Part shown: positions 15,584-56,135 of the stretch, in pieces
Layout of the letters: each line of letters opens with the position of its first letter
Position numbering within the stretch: position 1 is the first letter of the stretch
NCBI RefSeq assembly: GCF_002252705.1
Contig: NZ_NQLA01000011.1
Location: forward strand, 1-64,000
Source: Vulcanococcus limneticus LL
Lineage (GTDB): Bacteria; Cyanobacteriota; Cyanobacteriia; PCC-6307; Cyanobiaceae
Length of the DNA: 64,000 nucleotides
Reading direction: 5' to 3'
The notes under the pieces: generated by a model
Told to the model about the DNA's origin: nothing
Seen by the model: the letters and a program-made list of their open reading frames with translations, nothing else
The model's database searches: none
Program-made: the position numbers and the translations under genes

Positions 15584-16477
15584 ATGCCGTCCCTGGTCCC
15601 TGCTTCGGCAGCCCCGGCCCCTGGGGGTGGCCCCCTGGCTAGGGTTGCCCTCTGCCTCCAATACGACGGCGCCGCCTACTGCGGCTGGCAGCGCCAGCCC
15701 CGCGACCCCAGCGTGCAGGAGACCCTGGAGGGCGCCATCGCCCAGCTGGATCCGCAGCGGCCCGCGCTGGCCGTAGCGGCCGGGCGCACTGACAGCGGTG
15801 TCCATGCCGCCGGCCAGGTGGTGCACTTTGATGCGGCTGGCCCGATCCCTGCCCAGCGTTGGGCGGCCGCCCTCAACGGCCGCCTGCCGGCCAGCATCCG
15901 GGTTCGGGCCGCCGCCGCAGTGCCGTCCGACTGGCATGCCTGCTTCTCTGCGACCTACCGCCGCTACCGCTACACCCTCCACAACGCCCGGGTCCCCAAC
16001 CTGTTCCTGGCCCCCTGGAGCTGGCACCGCTACCAGGTGCGCCTGGATGAGGGCCTGATGCGCCGGGCCCTGGAAGGCATGTTGGGTGAGCACGATTTCG
16101 CCGCCTTCGAGCGGGCCGGCAGCAGTCGTTCCCACTCGCGCACCACCTTGCAGGAGGTGAGCGTGGAGCGCTGCGGGGATCTGATCACGGTGGAACTCCA
16201 GGCCAGTGGCTTCCTCTACGGCATGGTGCGGCTGGTGATGGGCCAGCTGGTGGCGCTGGGGGAGGGCCGCCTGGCCCTGGCGGACTTCGAGCGGCGCTGG
16301 CGCAGCCGCGCCCGCTCGGAGGTGAAGGAGGCGGCCCCCCCCCAGGGCCTCTGCCTGCTGCGGGTGGGCTATCCCCACGAGATCTTCCCCCGAGCCGCCT
16401 GGTATGATGGTCAACCGCGGTATTCGCTGGAGTGCTCTGATCCTCCAGCCGCCGGAGCGTCCCAGCCGCAAGGCTGA
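15584..16477 (+). CDS. truA: tRNA pseudouridine synthase A
   Basis: 297 residues from ATG 15584; an earlier in-frame ATG (15491) falls in the rplQ terminator. Core motifs: [15 protein letters not shown] and the catalytic-Asp motif [10 protein letters not shown], then [20 protein letters not shown] and [12 protein letters not shown]. TruA modifies U38-40 in the anticodon arm. Its stop codon lies inside a long RNA hairpin. Confidence 0.95.
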
Positions 16478-48691: not shown

Positions 48692-49090
48692 TCAGGGCTC
48701 CCCACTGGGGCCCTGGGCCGGCGGGGCCTTCTGCCGCTCCAGGCGCGTCTCCGCCTCCAGCTCCCGGGCCAGGAACAGGTTCAGGAAGGTCCGAATCACC
48801 GCCACCACGCCCAGCTGGATCAGGTGCTGGCCAGAGGGGGTGGTGGTGGTGGCGACGATGTCGGCGCCGAGCTGGAATTCCAGGGCCAGCGACAGCCAGG
48901 CCCCGAAGCGCAGTCGCACCCCCGCCAGGGGCGGCCCGGGTTGGGCACGCCGCCGCCAGGGCCGTTGCAGTTGGTTGGCGCAGGCCAGCAGGCCCACGAG
49001 CACCGTTCCCACCGAGAGGGTCTCGAGCAGGAAGCGGGTGGTGCCGGCCAGCGCCAGCAGCAGGGTTTCGGCGCTCTCAGCGATCGGCAT
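48692..49090 (-). CDS. DUF1622 membrane protein
   Basis: 132 residues, LETLSVGTVLVGLLACANQL and RLRFGAWLSLALEFQLGADI, then a helix (HLIQLGVVAVIRTFLNLFLA) and a charged tail (RELEAETRLERQK), the DUF1622 pattern. Function unknown. Its start overlaps the end of the upstream gene by 14 bases. Confidence 0.85.
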   Translation of the reverse strand: MPIAESAETLLLALAGTTRFLLETLSVGTVLVGLLACANQLQRPWRRRAQPGPPLAGVRLRFGAWLSLALEFQLGADIVATTTTPSGQHLIQLGVVAVIRTFLNLFLARELEAETRLERQKAPPAQGPSGEP

Positions 49091-49688
49091 CGGGCTGCGG
49101 GTGAGGGGAGCGCAGGGGTGGCTGATCCAGCAGGTGGATCAGCCACCCTGGCACCGCGATCGCGGTCACGAGGATCGTGAGCGAGGTGCTCAGACGGCTG
49201 GAGAAGGCCCGGGCGGGATCGAGGCCGGAATGCAGGAAGGTGAGGGTCACCAATACCGCGAAGATGCCGGTGGTGAGTGCGCTGGCCGACCGCAGCAGAT
49301 CCCGCGGCGGGTGGCCGCCACCCAGCCGGGCATCCCGGCTCAGGCGTCGACCGGCCAGGCCACCGGCCAGGGCAAAGCAGCCCAGCGTGAGGGCCCGGCC
49401 CGTGACATCCCCCGTGGGGGCGCTGGCCTGCAGCCGGCTCGCCAGTACGGCGGCCGTGCCAAGCACCGATCCGGTGGCAGCCCCCAGCAGGCCCCACCAG
49501 CGCAGTGGATCCACGGTGCGGCGGCTCACCTGGGCCGTGGCTGCCAGGGCCAGGGCGCCCAGCAGGCTTGCGGGAACCTCCGGCAGCCTGCTGGTGAGCC
49601 CGTAGCCCAGTACGGCGCCCAGCAGCCCACCGGCCAGCCGCTGCAGCTGGAGGACCGGAGCGGGGCGGGGAAGGGGGAGAGGACGCAT
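49077..49688 (-). CDS. Integral membrane protein, unknown
   Basis: 203 residues from ATG 49688 (MRPLPLPRPAPVLQLQRLAG). Five or six hydrophobic segments (LAGGLLGAVLGYGLTSRLP, ASLLGALALAATAQVSRR, GRALTLGCFALAGGLAGRRL, LTTGIFAVLVTLTFLHSGL, LTILVTAIAVPGWLIHLLDQ). No family recognised. First gene of the four-gene membrane-protein row. Confidence 0.7.
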   Translation of the reverse strand: MRPLPLPRPAPVLQLQRLAGGLLGAVLGYGLTSRLPEVPASLLGALALAATAQVSRRTVDPLRWWGLLGAATGSVLGTAAVLASRLQASAPTGDVTGRALTLGCFALAGGLAGRRLSRDARLGGGHPPRDLLRSASALTTGIFAVLVTLTFLHSGLDPARAFSSRLSTSLTILVTAIAVPGWLIHLLDQPPLRSPHPQPDADR

Positions 49689-49946
49689 GGCCTGGCCTGG
49701 CGGAGCGGAGCCCAACGCCCCTCGTGCCGCAACGTATCGACCTCCCAGGCCCCTGTCCCGCCGCTGGTGAGGATTGCAAAGTCGACGAATTCGGCTGGGT
49801 TTGCGGGTAGCGGCAGGGGAGCCGGTTCGGGCCAGACGCTCCGTCCGCCGGCCCGCGCTGGAGTGGATCCGTCCGCCGCTGGCGTGGCGGGCATCACCAT
49901 GGGCTGTTCCCGGTTTGACCGCTGCCGATGGCGGCGCAGAGCTGGC

Positions 49947-52321
49947 ATGCGGCCTGATGGACCCTGGCCCTTGAGCGCAGCAGCCGATCGACCGGTGATC
50001 GCGATCGTGGGGGGGGCTTCAGCGGCACCCTGCTCGCCAGCCACCTGCTGCGCCGCAGTGCCCGGCCGCTGGAGCTGTTGCTGATCGATCGCAACGGGGG
50101 CTTCGGCAAGGGCCTGGCCTACGGCACTGGCGATCCGGGCCACCTGCTCAACGTGTCGGCGGGGGCGATGAGCGCCTGGCCGAGCGATCCCAGCCATCTG
50201 CTGCGCTGGCTGGAGCTCAACCGCGAGAGTCTGTCGGACCTGCTGCCGGCGGATCTGGACGCCAGCAGCTTCATCCCCCGCCAGGTCTACGGGCTGTACC
50301 TGAGCTCGATCCTGCAGGACGCGATCGCCCACGCCTCGCCGGAGATCCGCTTCCGCAGCCTGACCGCCGAGGTGGTGGATCTGGAACCCGGCGCCCAGGC
50401 GGGGGCGCCCTATCGCCTCAGCCTGCGGGACGGCGAACAGCTGCAGGTCGATCGGGTGGTGCTGGCCTGGGGCAACTCCGCGATCCCTCCCGAGGCCCCG
50501 TCCGATCCGCTGCAACGCCATGGCTGGCTGGCTGGCGCCACGGCGGATCTGGATCCCGACGCCACGGTGGCGCTGCTGGGCACCGGCCTGACCATGGTGG
50601 ACATGGTGGTGTCGCTGTTGGGCCAGGGCCACCGCGGCCCGGTGATCGCCCTCTCGCGCCGCGGCCATGCTCCCAACGGTCACCGCCGGGTGCGGCCGAT
50701 CGCCCCCTGGCTCGATCCCGCCGAGGCCCCCGGTACCGTGCTGGGCCTCTGGCGCCTGATCCGCCGGCGGGTGGCCCAGGCCGAGCGCGAAGGCGACGAC
50801 TGGCGCGCCGTGATCGATGCGCTGCGGCCGGTGAGCCAGCGGCTCTGGGCCCAGCTGGGGGAGCGGGAGCGCTGCCGCTTCCTGCGCCATGCCGCCGTGG
50901 TTTGGGATGTGCACCGCCACCGCATCGCTGAGCCGCTGCAGCGCCAGCTGCAGGCCCTGCTCGAAGCCGGCCAGCTGCGGCTCTGGGCTGCGCGGCTGGA
51001 GCGGGTCGAGCCCCAGGCGGGGCGCCTGGCCCTGCAGCTGCGCCGCCGCGGCCACACCACCAGCGAAACGGTGCATGTGGACCGGCTGATCCGCTGCACC
51101 GGCATCCCCCTCGACTACGCCCGCGCCCAGGAGCCCCTGCTGCGCCAGTTGCGCGAGCGCGGCCTGCTGCGCAGCGATGGCCTCGGTCTGGGGGTGCGCA
51201 GCGCCGCCAATGGCGCCCTGTTCGCCGCCCCTGTCCACGGCAGCCCTGTCCCCTGCAGCCCTGCCGATGGCAGCGGGCAGCCATCGCCGGTGCTCTACAC
51301 CATCGGCTCCCCCCGCAAGGGCGACCTGTGGGAGACGATCGCCGTGCCGGAGCTGCGCCACCAGGCCCAGGCCCTGGCCGAGACCCTGCTGCGCTCGCTG
51401 CCGCGCTTCCTGCTGCCGGTGGAGCCGGTGCTGCCCCAGGTGGGCGCGGCGGAGTCTGGTGCTGGTTCCGCGGTCTCCGCCCCCGCGGTGGCGCCCCCTC
51501 CCCCGGCCTTCCTCTGGCGCCAGCTGTTCGACCCCGACACCAGCACCTTCACCTACCTACTGGCCGACCCGGCCAGCGGCGAGGCGGCGCTGGTGGATCC
51601 GGTGCTGGAGCAGCTGGAGCGGGATCTGCAGCTGCTCCAGGAGCTGGGGCTGCAGCTCAGTTTCTGCCTGGAGACCCACCTGCACGCCGACCACATCACC
51701 GCCGCCGGCGAGTTGCGCCGCCGCACCGGCTGCCGCCTGATCGTGCCGGCGGCCCCCGGGATCACCAACGCCGACCAGTTGCTGGTGGGCGGTGAGCGGC
51801 TGCGGCTGCAGGCAATCGAGCTGGAGGTGATCGCCACGCCGGGCCACAGCCCCGAGCACCTGTCCTATCTGGTGCAGGGCAGCCACCTGCTCACGGGCGA
51901 TGCGCTGCTGATCCGCGGCTGTGGGCGCACCGATATCCAGAACGGCGATCCCGGCCAGCTCTACGACTCCCTGCAGCGGCTGCTCGCCCTGCCGGAGGCC
52001 ACCCTGGTGCTTCCCGCCCACGACTACCTGGGCCGCACCTCCAGCAGCATCGGCGAGGAGAAGCGCCACAACCCGAAGCTGGCCGGGCGTAGCCGCGAGC
52101 AGTTCATCACCCTGATGACCAGCCAGCGGCTGGCGCCGCCCCGCCGCATCGATCAGGCCCTGCCCGCCAACCTGCACCTGGGGGACTGGCTGCCGGGCGA
52201 CCACCACGACGCGGACCTGCAGGCCCACCTGGCGGGCCAGGCCCATGACGCCCGCGAGGCCCTCGCCAAGGCGGATGCCAACCGCGACATCTACAACGCC
52301 TACATCGGCATGTACATCTGA
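49947..52321 (+). pseudogene. FAD/NAD(P)-binding protein fused to persulfide-dioxygenase-like hydrolase, frameshifted
   Basis: The N-terminus (MRPDGPWPLSAAADRPVIAI) reaches the Rossmann glycine loop IVGG and is then thrown out of frame at an eight-G run (50009-50016). One extra G would restore VGGGFSGTLLASHLLRRSAR and join LLLIDRNGGFGKGLAYGTGD, giving ~790 residues. The first ~470 are an NAD_binding_9-type flavoprotein (LLNVSAGAMSAWPSDPSHLL). The last ~270 are a metallo-beta-lactamase fold: THLHADH, TPGHSPEHLSYLV, GDALLIRGCGRTDIQ, LPAHDY, as in ETHE1-type persulfide dioxygenases. Without correction, translation could begin only at about 50078, lacking the FAD loop. Confidence 0.82.
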
Positions 52322-52362
52322 GCCGATGATCCGGGCGCCCCAGCGCCCCACCGCGCGGCGGA

Positions 52363-54153
52363 TCAGCGCCCCACCGCGTAGTTCTGCATCAGGCGTGCAT
52401 TGGCGGCGGCCCGCAGCACCGCTCCCTCGGGGCTGAGGTCCCGGGCGCAGGCGCACAGCCGCCCCTCTGACCAGGGGCCCTTGCGCTCCAGCCGGTGGCC
52501 CCTGGCCTCCAGGGCGGTGATCGTGGCGGCCGGAAGTCGCGACTCCACCGCCAGGTGGCCCGGCCGGGCCGGGCGGGGATAGAAGGAGCTGGGGGCGTGC
52601 TCGCTGTGCCAGGCGGGGGAATCGATCGCCTGCTGCAGGCCCAGGTCGTGGTGCGCCAGCTTGAGGAACAGCTGCAGTGACCACTGGTCCTGCTGGTCGC
52701 CGCCGGGGGTGCCGAAGGCCAGGGCCGTGCGCCCCTCGCGGAAGGCCATCGAGGGGGAGAGGGTGCTGCGGGGCCGCTTGCCCGGGGCCAGGGCGTTGGG
52801 GAGTCCTTCCTCCAGCCAGAACATCTGGGCGCGGCTGCCCAGGCAGAAGCCCAGGCCCGGAATCATCGGTGAACTCTGCAGCCAGCCCCCCGACGGAGTG
52901 GCTGCCACCATGTTTCCCCAGCGGTCCACCACGTCGATGTGGCAGGTGTCGCCGCGCACCACGCCCACGGTGGGTTCGCCAGTGCCGGCACCGCCCACCG
53001 CCGGGGCTTCGATCCCGCTGAGCCGGGGCGCCCGCCCCATGGGGGTGCCGGGGCGCAGCTCCAGCGAGGCCTGGGGGCCGATCAGCTGGCGGCGCTCGTC
53101 GTTGTAGTCCTCCGAGAGCAGGGCCTCGATCGGCACCGCGCCAAAGGCGGGGTCGCCATACCAGGCCTCCCGATCGGCGAAGGCCAGCTTGCCGGCCTCG
53201 GTGAGCAGGTGCACGAACTCGGGGCCATCGGGCGCCAGCCCGGCCAGGTCGAAGCCCCGCAGCAGGGCCAGCTGCTGCAGGAACACCGGCCCCTGGGTCC
53301 AGGGACCGCACTTGGCCACCAGCCAGTCGCCGTAGCTCAGGGTGAGCGGTGCCTCCCAGCTGGCCTGCCAGGCCGCCAGGTCGGCGCCATCGAGCAGGGC
53401 TCGGTGGCGGCGGCCGGAGGCATCCCGCAGCTCCGCGGTGGCGCAGAAGCGATCGATCGCCTCGGCCACGAAGCCCTCGCGCCAGGCGTGGCGCACGGCC
53501 TCGATGCGCCGCTCGCGGCTGCCGCCGGCCTGTCGCGCCTCTGCCACCAGGCGCTCGTAGGTGTCCGCCAGCTCCGGCCGGCGAAACAGGCTCCAGGCCC
53601 TGGGCACCTCGCCGTTGGGCAGCCACACGGCGGCGGAGCTGGGCCATTCGGCCTGGAACCACTCCCGCATCCCGGCGATCGTCTCCACCGCCTGGGGCAC
53701 CAGCGGGCAGCCGCTGCGGGCGTAGTGGATGGCGGGTGCCAGGGCCTCGGCGATGTCGATCGTGCCGTGGTCGCGCAGCAGCAGCAGCCAGGCATCCACG
53801 GCCCCCGGCACGCAGGGGGCGAGCAGCCCCGAGCCCGGCACCATCGCCAGGTCCAGGGCGCGGAAGGCCGCGATCGTCGCCCGCCGCGGCGCCACCCCCT
53901 GGCCGCAGAGCACCGTCAGCTGCTGGTTCGCCGCCGACCACACCAGGGCTGGCATGTCGCCGCCGGGGCCATTGAGGTGGGGTTCGGCCAGGTGCAGCAC
54001 AAAGCCGGCCACCACCGCCGCGTCGAAGGCGTTGCCGCCCCGCTCCAGCACCCCCATCGCCGCGCTGGAGCCGATCCAGTGGGTGGTGGCCACCATGCCG
54101 AAGCTGCCGTGCAGCTCGGGCCGGGTTGTGAACGGCTGGGGGGTGAGGGCCAT
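52363..54153 (-). CDS. Gamma-glutamyltranspeptidase family enzyme
   Basis: 596 residues from ATG 54153 (MALTPQPFTTRPELHGSFGM); a longer in-frame start was rejected as non-conserved. GGNAFDAAVVAGFVLHLAEP and HLNGPGGDMPALV are family blocks, and Thr403 in VRGDTCHIDVVDRWGNMVAA is the expected nucleophile at the autocleavage site (usual TTH becomes TCH). No signal peptide is obvious, so the site of action is unclear. It would split gamma-glutamyl compounds such as glutathione. It converges on the flavoprotein/hydrolase gene. Confidence 0.9.
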   Translation of the reverse strand: MALTPQPFTTRPELHGSFGMVATTHWIGSSAAMGVLERGGNAFDAAVVAGFVLHLAEPHLNGPGGDMPALVWSAANQQLTVLCGQGVAPRRATIAAFRALDLAMVPGSGLLAPCVPGAVDAWLLLLRDHGTIDIAEALAPAIHYARSGCPLVPQAVETIAGMREWFQAEWPSSAAVWLPNGEVPRAWSLFRRPELADTYERLVAEARQAGGSRERRIEAVRHAWREGFVAEAIDRFCATAELRDASGRRHRALLDGADLAAWQASWEAPLTLSYGDWLVAKCGPWTQGPVFLQQLALLRGFDLAGLAPDGPEFVHLLTEAGKLAFADREAWYGDPAFGAVPIEALLSEDYNDERRQLIGPQASLELRPGTPMGRAPRLSGIEAPAVGGAGTGEPTVGVVRGDTCHIDVVDRWGNMVAATPSGGWLQSSPMIPGLGFCLGSRAQMFWLEEGLPNALAPGKRPRSTLSPSMAFREGRTALAFGTPGGDQQDQWSLQLFLKLAHHDLGLQQAIDSPAWHSEHAPSSFYPRPARPGHLAVESRLPAATITALEARGHRLERKGPWSEGRLCACARDLSPEGAVLRAAANARLMQNYAVGR

Positions 54154-54265
54154 CGGGCCAGAGCGCTGGGGGCTCAAGGGTGGCGTGGCGGTGACGACGC
54201 GAATCCCCCGGGGGCGGCGGCGATGATCGGCGGGATCACAGCCCCGTGGGGCCGGAGCGCCAGGG

Positions 54266-55327
54266 ATGACCGCCATTCTCGATCGCCTCACCGAGCGCAT
54301 CGGCAACACGCCGCTGGTGCGCTTGCACCAGACGGCCAGCCGCTACGGAGCCCAGGCGGAGGTCCTGCTCAAGCTCGAGTACCTGAATCCCCTTGGCAGC
54401 GTCAAGGACCGCACCGCCTTCAGCCTGATCGAGGAGGCCCGCGCCAGCGGGCGGGTGAATGGGAGCACGGTGCTGATTGAGCCCACCACCGGCAACACGG
54501 GCATCGGCCTGGCCTTCGCCGCCGCCGCCGCCGGGCTGCGGCTGATCCTGGTGATGCCGGATCGAGTGAGTGCCGAGCGCATCCGCCTGGCCAAGCTGCT
54601 GGGGGCGAAGGTGGTGCTCAGCCCGGGCGAGGCGTTCATGCTCGGTTGCATCGCCAAGGCGGAGGAGCTGCAGCAGGAGATTCCGGGAAGCGTGATCTTG
54701 CAGCAGTTCCGCAACCCGGCCAATCCGAGCATCCACGAGCGCACCACCGGGCCGGAGATCTGGCGCGACACCGGCGGCCAGCTGGATGTGGTGGTGGCGG
54801 GCGTGGGCACCGGCGGCACCCTGATGGGGGTGGCTCGGGCCCTCAAGCCCCTGCACCCCGATCTGCGTTGCGTGGCGGTGCAGCCGGCCCGCTCGCCGGT
54901 GCTGGGCGGCGGCGAACCCGGGCCCCACCAGCTCACGGGCATGGGCCCGAACTTCGTGTCCCCTCTGGTGGACCAGGGGCTGATCGATGAGATCGTCTCG
55001 GCCTACGAGGAGGATGCGATCGCGGTGCTGCGCCACTGCGCCGCCCACGACGGCATCCCCCTGGGCGTCTCCAGCGGGGCGGTGGTCTGGGCGGCGCTGC
55101 AGCTGGCGCGCCGGCCGGAGCATGCGGGCCAGCGGATCGTGGCGATCTGCGCCTCCGGCAGCGAGCGCTACCTCTCCACCAGCCTGCTGGCTGGGATCGG
55201 CCTGGAGAGCGACGACGTGAGCGACTGGTTCGGCGACGGGGCTGCTGTGGGCGGAGGGGGCGTGGACGGGGCGGCGACCGCGGCGGTCCCGGCTGAGCTG
55301 CAGGGAGCCTCACTCCATGGGGCCTGA
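54266..55327 (+). CDS. Cysteine synthase family enzyme (PLP)
   Basis: 353 residues. PLP lysine is Lys47 in [11 protein letters not shown]; the substrate loop is PTTGNTG (usually PTSGNTG) and the phosphate loop [12 protein letters not shown]-sulfhydrylase activity (O-acetylserine + sulfide to cysteine) is the first guess, but the Ser-to-Thr change and the ~40-residue Gly/Ala-rich tail could mean another amine or sulfur substrate. It overlaps the TauE/SafE gene by 11 bases. Confidence 0.9.
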
Positions 55328-56135
55328 TCGCCTGTTGGCGGCCGCGCCCCCGGCGGTGGGGCTTCTGCAGGGCCTGGATCTGGTCTGGGTGGCGCTGGCG
55401 GCCGCGGCCGCGGGCCTGATCAACGCCCTGGCCGGCGGCGGCTCCCTGATCAGCTTTCCGGCGCTCACGGCCCTGGGGTTGCCGGCGGTGATGGCCAACG
55501 TGACCAATACCGTGGCCCTGGCCCCCGGCTACCTGGGTGCCACCCTCGCCCAGCGAAGGGACCTGCACGGCCAGCGCCGCCGCCTCTGGCTGCTGCTGCC
55601 CGCCGCTGCGGTGGGGGGGCTGGTGGGCGCGGTGCTGCTGCTCAACACGGCTGAGCGGGTGTTCGCTGTCCTGGTGCCGTTTCTGATCCTGTTGGCCTCC
55701 CTGCTGCTGGCCGCCCAGGAGCGGTTGCGGGCCTGGGTGCTGCGCCGAGCTGCCCACCATGGCCGCCACCCCAGCGAGCTTTGGTCGATCGGCCCTGTGG
55801 CCCTGGCCGCCGTCTACGGGGGCTATTTCGGCGGCGGCCTCAGCGTGATTGTGCTGGCGGTGCTGGCCCTCAGCCTCGACGACGACCTCACCCGCCTCAA
55901 CGCCCTCAAGCAGGCGGTCGCCTTCGTGACCAATCTCACGGCCGCCGTCTTTTTCCTGTTCTCCGATCAGGTGGCCTGGCGCACCGCCGTGGTGATGGCC
56001 CTGGCGGCCCTGGTCGGTGGGGCCCTGGGGGGCAAGGTGGCCGGCCGGGTCAATCCCCAGGTCTTGCGCAGCCTGGTGGTGGGGGTGGGGATTGCCGTGG
56101 CGCTGGCCTATTTCGTGCGACTTTTCGCCTTTTGA
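55317..56135 (+). CDS. TauE/SafE-family sulfite/sulfonate exporter
   Basis: 272 residues, about eight membrane segments. [20 protein letters not shown] and the second repeat [20 protein letters not shown] are the paired TauE/SafE motifs. The family exports sulfite, sulfoacetate or related organic anions. Coupled to the cysteine synthase gene upstream and followed by a second one. Confidence 0.9.

Follow-up and report, generated by a model that had tools for sequence, protein, structure and literature searches.

A one-base frame break at an eight-G tract in a predicted flavin-type/persulfide dioxygenase fusion gene of Vulcanococcus limneticus LL

The stretch of DNA analysed in this work (64,000 nucleotides of contig NZ_NQLA01000011.1, hereafter the window) carries a gene whose reading frame is broken, for want of one base, at a run of eight G lying on the codons of a putative FAD-binding loop, and the reading we favour, at a probability of roughly 0.58, is that this break arose by a recent one-base replication-slippage mutation in the sequenced lineage. 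The break is real in the given sequence, because DNA alignment with the intact gene of G276, a genome of the same family and the source of the nearest homologue found, shows a gap of one base at the tract: the window has GATCGT-GGGGGGGGCTTCAGC where G276 has GATCGTCGGCGCGGGCTTCAGC, and the single absent base falls inside the run. As a sequence-only reading of this DNA had held, the tract (50007-50017 read GT-GGGGGGGG-C) contains exactly eight G and is the point where two frames meet one base short of continuity. The upstream frame codes for the N-terminus and the first beta strand of the Rossmann fold (RPVIAIVGG), in agreement with the G276 protein over MAPPDSPPVIAIVGAGFSG; past the tract it continues as ...AAADRPVIAIVGG|ASAAPCSPATCCAAVPGRWSCC*, out of frame, up to its TGA. 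The downstream frame reads ...RDRGGGFSGTLLASHLLRRSARPLELLLIDRNG... across the tract and GGGFSGTLLASHLLRRSARPLELLLIDRNG (GGGFSGTLLAS…) after it, and its length and freedom from stops (Table 1) can be set against the 15 and 4 stops of the two remaining forward frames over 50018-52321. On its 5′ side, this frame has its last stop at TGA 49955-49957, is devoid of ATG, GTG or TTG from there to the tract, and translates as RSTGDRDRGGG, with no hydrophobic beta strand. Reinitiation at the TTG overlapping the upstream stop is possible, and would yield a product without the FAD loop. Neither an Rfam match over 49000-53000 nor a promoter or terminator in a scan upstream of the gene was found.

Table 1. 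Features of the broken gene and of its neighbourhood (positions in the window).
Feature	Position	Strand	Details
Upstream frame	49947..50084	+	Candidate starts ATG 49947, TTG 49971, GTG 49995
G8 run, site of the frame change	50009..50016	+	One base fewer than intact G276 in the DNA alignment
Downstream frame	50018..52321	+	767 codons and stop; internal stops 0
First standard start in the downstream frame past the break (TTG 50078)	50078..50084	+	Overlaps TGA 50082-50084, which ends the upstream frame
FAD-NAD(P)-binding domain, PF13454 (NAD_binding_9)	50018..50476	+	E=6.5e-35; model positions 7-154 in the downstream frame
ETHE1-type persulfide dioxygenase domain, metallo-beta-lactamase fold (PF00753)	51512..52198	+	Motifs HLHADH, GHS, GD, PAHDY
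Gamma-glutamyltranspeptidase (glutathione breakdown)	52363..54309	-	PF01019, E=4.1e-110
PALP-family enzyme	54266..55327	+	PF00291, E=2.7e-71
TauE/SafE sulfite exporter	55317..56135	+	PF01925, E=4.5e-43

Judged by its domains, the gene belongs to a cyanobacterial type in which a PF13454 FAD/NAD(P)-binding domain and an ETHE1-type persulfide dioxygenase form one protein. The first domain matches its model at 120.8 bits (cut-off 21.8), and the frame break parts its loop, GGGFSG, from the beta strand VIAIV. Earlier the second domain, a match to Lactamase_B (PF00753, E=3.4e-16), had been called a metallo-hydrolase; this can now be sharpened, as its closest solved structures are persulfide dioxygenases (4ysb, E=4e-72; BpPRF, 5ve3-5, about 7e-60; human ETHE1, 4chl, 1e-55), and it remains below the cut-off of the glyoxalase II model TIGR03413 (120 vs 200.8 bits). 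H554, H556, D558, H559, H610, D628 and H668 are invariant across 12 aligned fusions; the residues of the HxHxDH, GH and GD motifs we take, from general knowledge of the fold, to be the metal-site ligands. The similarity to dioxygenases, the motifs and the sulfur-related neighbours together point to oxidation of glutathione persulfide as the likely function. A persulfide dioxygenase of Synechococcus PCC 7002 oxidises GSSH (PMC7042703), and our literature search returned no paper on a fusion of PF13454 with a persulfide dioxygenase.

Among the neighbours listed in Table 1, the PALP-family enzyme is probably a cysteine synthase. The intact fusion of G276 (contig C48) likewise lies within about 5 kb of putative sulfur genes, which were named by eye as a serine acetyltransferase, a cysteine synthase, a YeeE/YedE-type transporter and a rhodanese-type sulfurtransferase. 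Elsewhere in the V. limneticus genome there are two stand-alone persulfide dioxygenase genes (C8:10274-11011 and C77:3489-4199) and one PF13454 paralogue (C13:76924-78294), and because of these the loss of the fusion could be tolerated, with the two dioxygenases and the FAD paralogue covering for it. In the paralogue (loci L118 and L189), and also in locus L150, the PF13454 domain stands behind a cysteine-dioxygenase-like domain (CDO_I), the order being the reverse in the window gene, where it stands in front of the persulfide dioxygenase. That one flavin-type domain is paired with thiol dioxygenases of two kinds suggests a redox role common to both.

The fusion is present in dozens of cyanobacteria, and its FAD loop is in one frame wherever it was read. 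This applies to 35 homologues (from Phormidium, Nostoc, Pseudanabaena, Leptolyngbya, Chroococcus, Arthrospira and others) and to eight further loci of the phylum, about 44 one-frame loops in total when that of G276 is included, with five as the longest G run; three phylum-level loci (L190, L197 and L198) to which the loop pattern could not be matched were left out of this count. Comparison of the tract in relatives, which the sequence-only reading had recommended, therefore reveals no equivalent G run in any of the loops read, upholds one frame as the ancestral state and makes the break, on the genomes compared (one per species), private to this genome. The G276 homologue is intact, starts with MAPPDSPPVIAIVGAGFSGTLLAS, and is 64% identical to the window protein over 735 aligned residues. 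A close homologue occurs only in this genome and in G276 among those sampled (400 genomes of the family, 399 of the order, 25 of the genus and 42 from the genus to which G276 belongs), so that the gene is patchy in its distribution and was probably acquired; another genome, G264, has a different, CDO-linked relative. No copies of the locus were found in plasmids, nor of the tract in viral contigs. In Tychonema (L072) and in G690 (L191) the flavin half stops about 450 codons past the loop, so that some cyanobacteria seem to have either a separate gene for each half or a truncated fusion.

In spite of the break, the downstream frame shows no further decay or relaxation of constraint, by either its invariant residues or relative-rate tests. 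Across 33 homologues 181 columns do not vary; the window protein has the conserved residue at 160 of them and the intact G276 protein at 153. Relative-rate tests against eight outgroups give the window lineage fewer unique changes than G276 every time (38-51 against 55-66). The earlier description of this frame as undamaged is thus borne out, both by its openness and by the conserved residues it keeps. Of the marks by which a pseudogene is recognised, the gene displays a frame disrupted relative to intact homologues and not the additional decay or relaxed constraint. Since constraint is kept and there is no acceleration of rate, the break would be either recent or unreal, the gene being unbroken in the latter case. 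A pairwise dN/dS estimate against G276 (0.30/0.64, NG86) was set aside, as synonymous sites are strongly biased, with GC3 at about 0.9.

G or C runs of eight bases and more are not enriched in the window, which has three (at 16335, 27890 and 50009), while an order-2 Markov model fitted to its composition gave 2.8 on average and never more than 7 over 30 simulations; the tract is accordingly what a GC content of 69% leads one to expect. Genome-wide there are 158 G8 positions on both strands, and the 100 of these that were listed correspond to 51 distinct runs, which bring the number examined, with the three of the window, to 54. Thirteen lie in continuous frames (nine with coding sequence on both sides by codon usage, four in frame on inspection), no simple frameshift apart from the one at 50009 was found among the 54, and the rest fall at gene edges, in intergenic DNA or are undecided. 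One apparent frameshift (L127, C1:216853) turned out to be an ordinary gene end and start, as did five suspicious runs (L136, L137, L144, L148 and L175). The lack of a second simple frameshift among the examined runs speaks against a platform-wide homopolymer error, and the assembly does not go wrong as a rule at such places.

Two much longer tracts occur in the same assembly, a draft of 160 contigs. A run of 19 G (C32:5448-5466; L170:1049-1067) cuts a P-type-ATPase-like frame (...LLGFWQERSAA) with no visible continuation after it, and is likely a poly-G misjoin, apparently a chimeric one, or else a real disruption. A run of 32 C (C20:6048-6079; L160:1549-1580) lies between convergent genes, far exceeds the usual tract length and is possibly a read artefact. 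Both have the look of artefacts that short reads produce at poly-G.

How the base came to be missing is best considered by weighing the possible origins together. The FAD-loop codons V-G-G-G could have drifted, in a genome so rich in GC, to nearly all G, giving a run prone to replication slippage, from which one base would recently have been lost in the sequenced lineage. In this state the ribosome would halt 22 codons after the tract and the FAD loop would remain unjoined to the rest of the protein, presumably with loss of the product, even if a reinitiated fragment with the dioxygenase domain is conceivable. A frame transition that occurs as a singleton is put down by the authors of GeneTack to an indel mutation or a sequencing error (PMC3711429), and here, too, a plain indel and a base-calling error are the explanations left, with a recent indel preferred over an error. 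An error in the consensus or assembly, the real tract being frame-keeping and the gene intact and normally expressed, is a serious if clearly less probable alternative. It would account for the full conservation of the downstream frame, since the lack of a second lesion is just as expected from an intact gene as from a recently broken one; there is at least one questionable poly-G join in the draft (the 19-G run at C32:5448) as well as the 32-base C run, and the reliability of short-read platforms drops at 8-mer runs (PMC11140927), all of which counts against a recent slippage mutation. Against the error, on the other hand, stand the 54 examined runs, at which no other simple frameshift was seen and 13 of which lie in continuous frames.

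Both regulated uses of the tract that had been proposed from the sequence fare worse than a recent slippage mutation or an error. Slipped-strand phase variation, with a tract length varying from cell to cell and the enzyme switched on or off, has a precedent in Campylobacter jejuni, which relies mainly on polyG/C tracts of at least seven bases and in which eight G are long enough to phase-vary (PMC4965091), and the good conservation of the gene would suit it. Even so, relatives are without the tract at the homologous position (longest G run five), long G and C runs in the window are as frequent as its composition predicts, and the predicted product is a sulfur enzyme of the cytoplasm, while phase variation strictly so called has to do with surface antigens (PMC11868660). 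A full-text literature search gave no paper with cyanobacterial phase variation as the subject of its title or abstract. With a tract that is private, G tracts that are unenriched and a product of this kind, positive evidence is missing and phase variation seems improbable; a contingency switch in particular, by which the run would toggle the flavin-linked persulfide dioxygenase and sulfane-sulfur oxidation between cells of a population, seems more improbable still. The remaining proposal, that the eight-G gene still yields a full-length protein through programmed slippage in transcription or frameshifting on the ribosome, could appeal to the conserved downstream frame and to the fact that homopolymers of at least eight bases are typical sites of transcription slippage (PMC3711429). 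Programmed sites, however, are kept by purifying selection, and conservation of the site is what the GeneTack authors ask for (PMC3711429), whilst the homologous loops read here have no slippery run and no conserved slippery site at the frame transition was found across homologues. In addition, within-run insertions in transcripts of E. coli and Buchnera, the two species measured, occurred only in A/T runs, the G/C runs being described by the authors as not prone to slippage (PMC5574713). We consequently find this proposal unsupported and regard it as very improbable.

A homopolymer frameshift in a single genome is of limited weight, but it should prompt a check of the G run before such a gene is called dead or switchable. 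Of broader interest could be the domain itself, a flavin-type one joined to a persulfide dioxygenase here and to a cysteine-dioxygenase-like domain in the paralogue, near genes of sulfur metabolism. As one domain family is fused to two dioxygenase types beside sulfur genes, the arrangement suggests that cyanobacterial sulfur dioxygenases have a redox partner still to be characterised.

In comparison with known systems, the window gene most resembles the singleton class of GeneTack, or a strain-specific pseudogene (PMC3711429), in having a frame transition in one genome, one-frame homologues and no conserved frameshift motif; it differs from such a pseudogene in the absence, so far, of further decay, and in the sequence at hand an error and a mutation look the same. 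With phase-variable genes of the simple-sequence-repeat type it shares an eight-G run towards the 5′ end of an open reading frame, although its tracts are not enriched, this one is not conserved and the product is not a surface determinant. The fusions of Nostoc, Phormidium, Pseudanabaena, Leptolyngbya and other genera (L038-L074) have the same domain order and dioxygenase motifs and about 50% identity over the full length, but they are in one frame and have no G run, as opposed to the frame-broken window gene with its eight G, in whose own family just one other genome, among the several hundred sampled, has the fusion.
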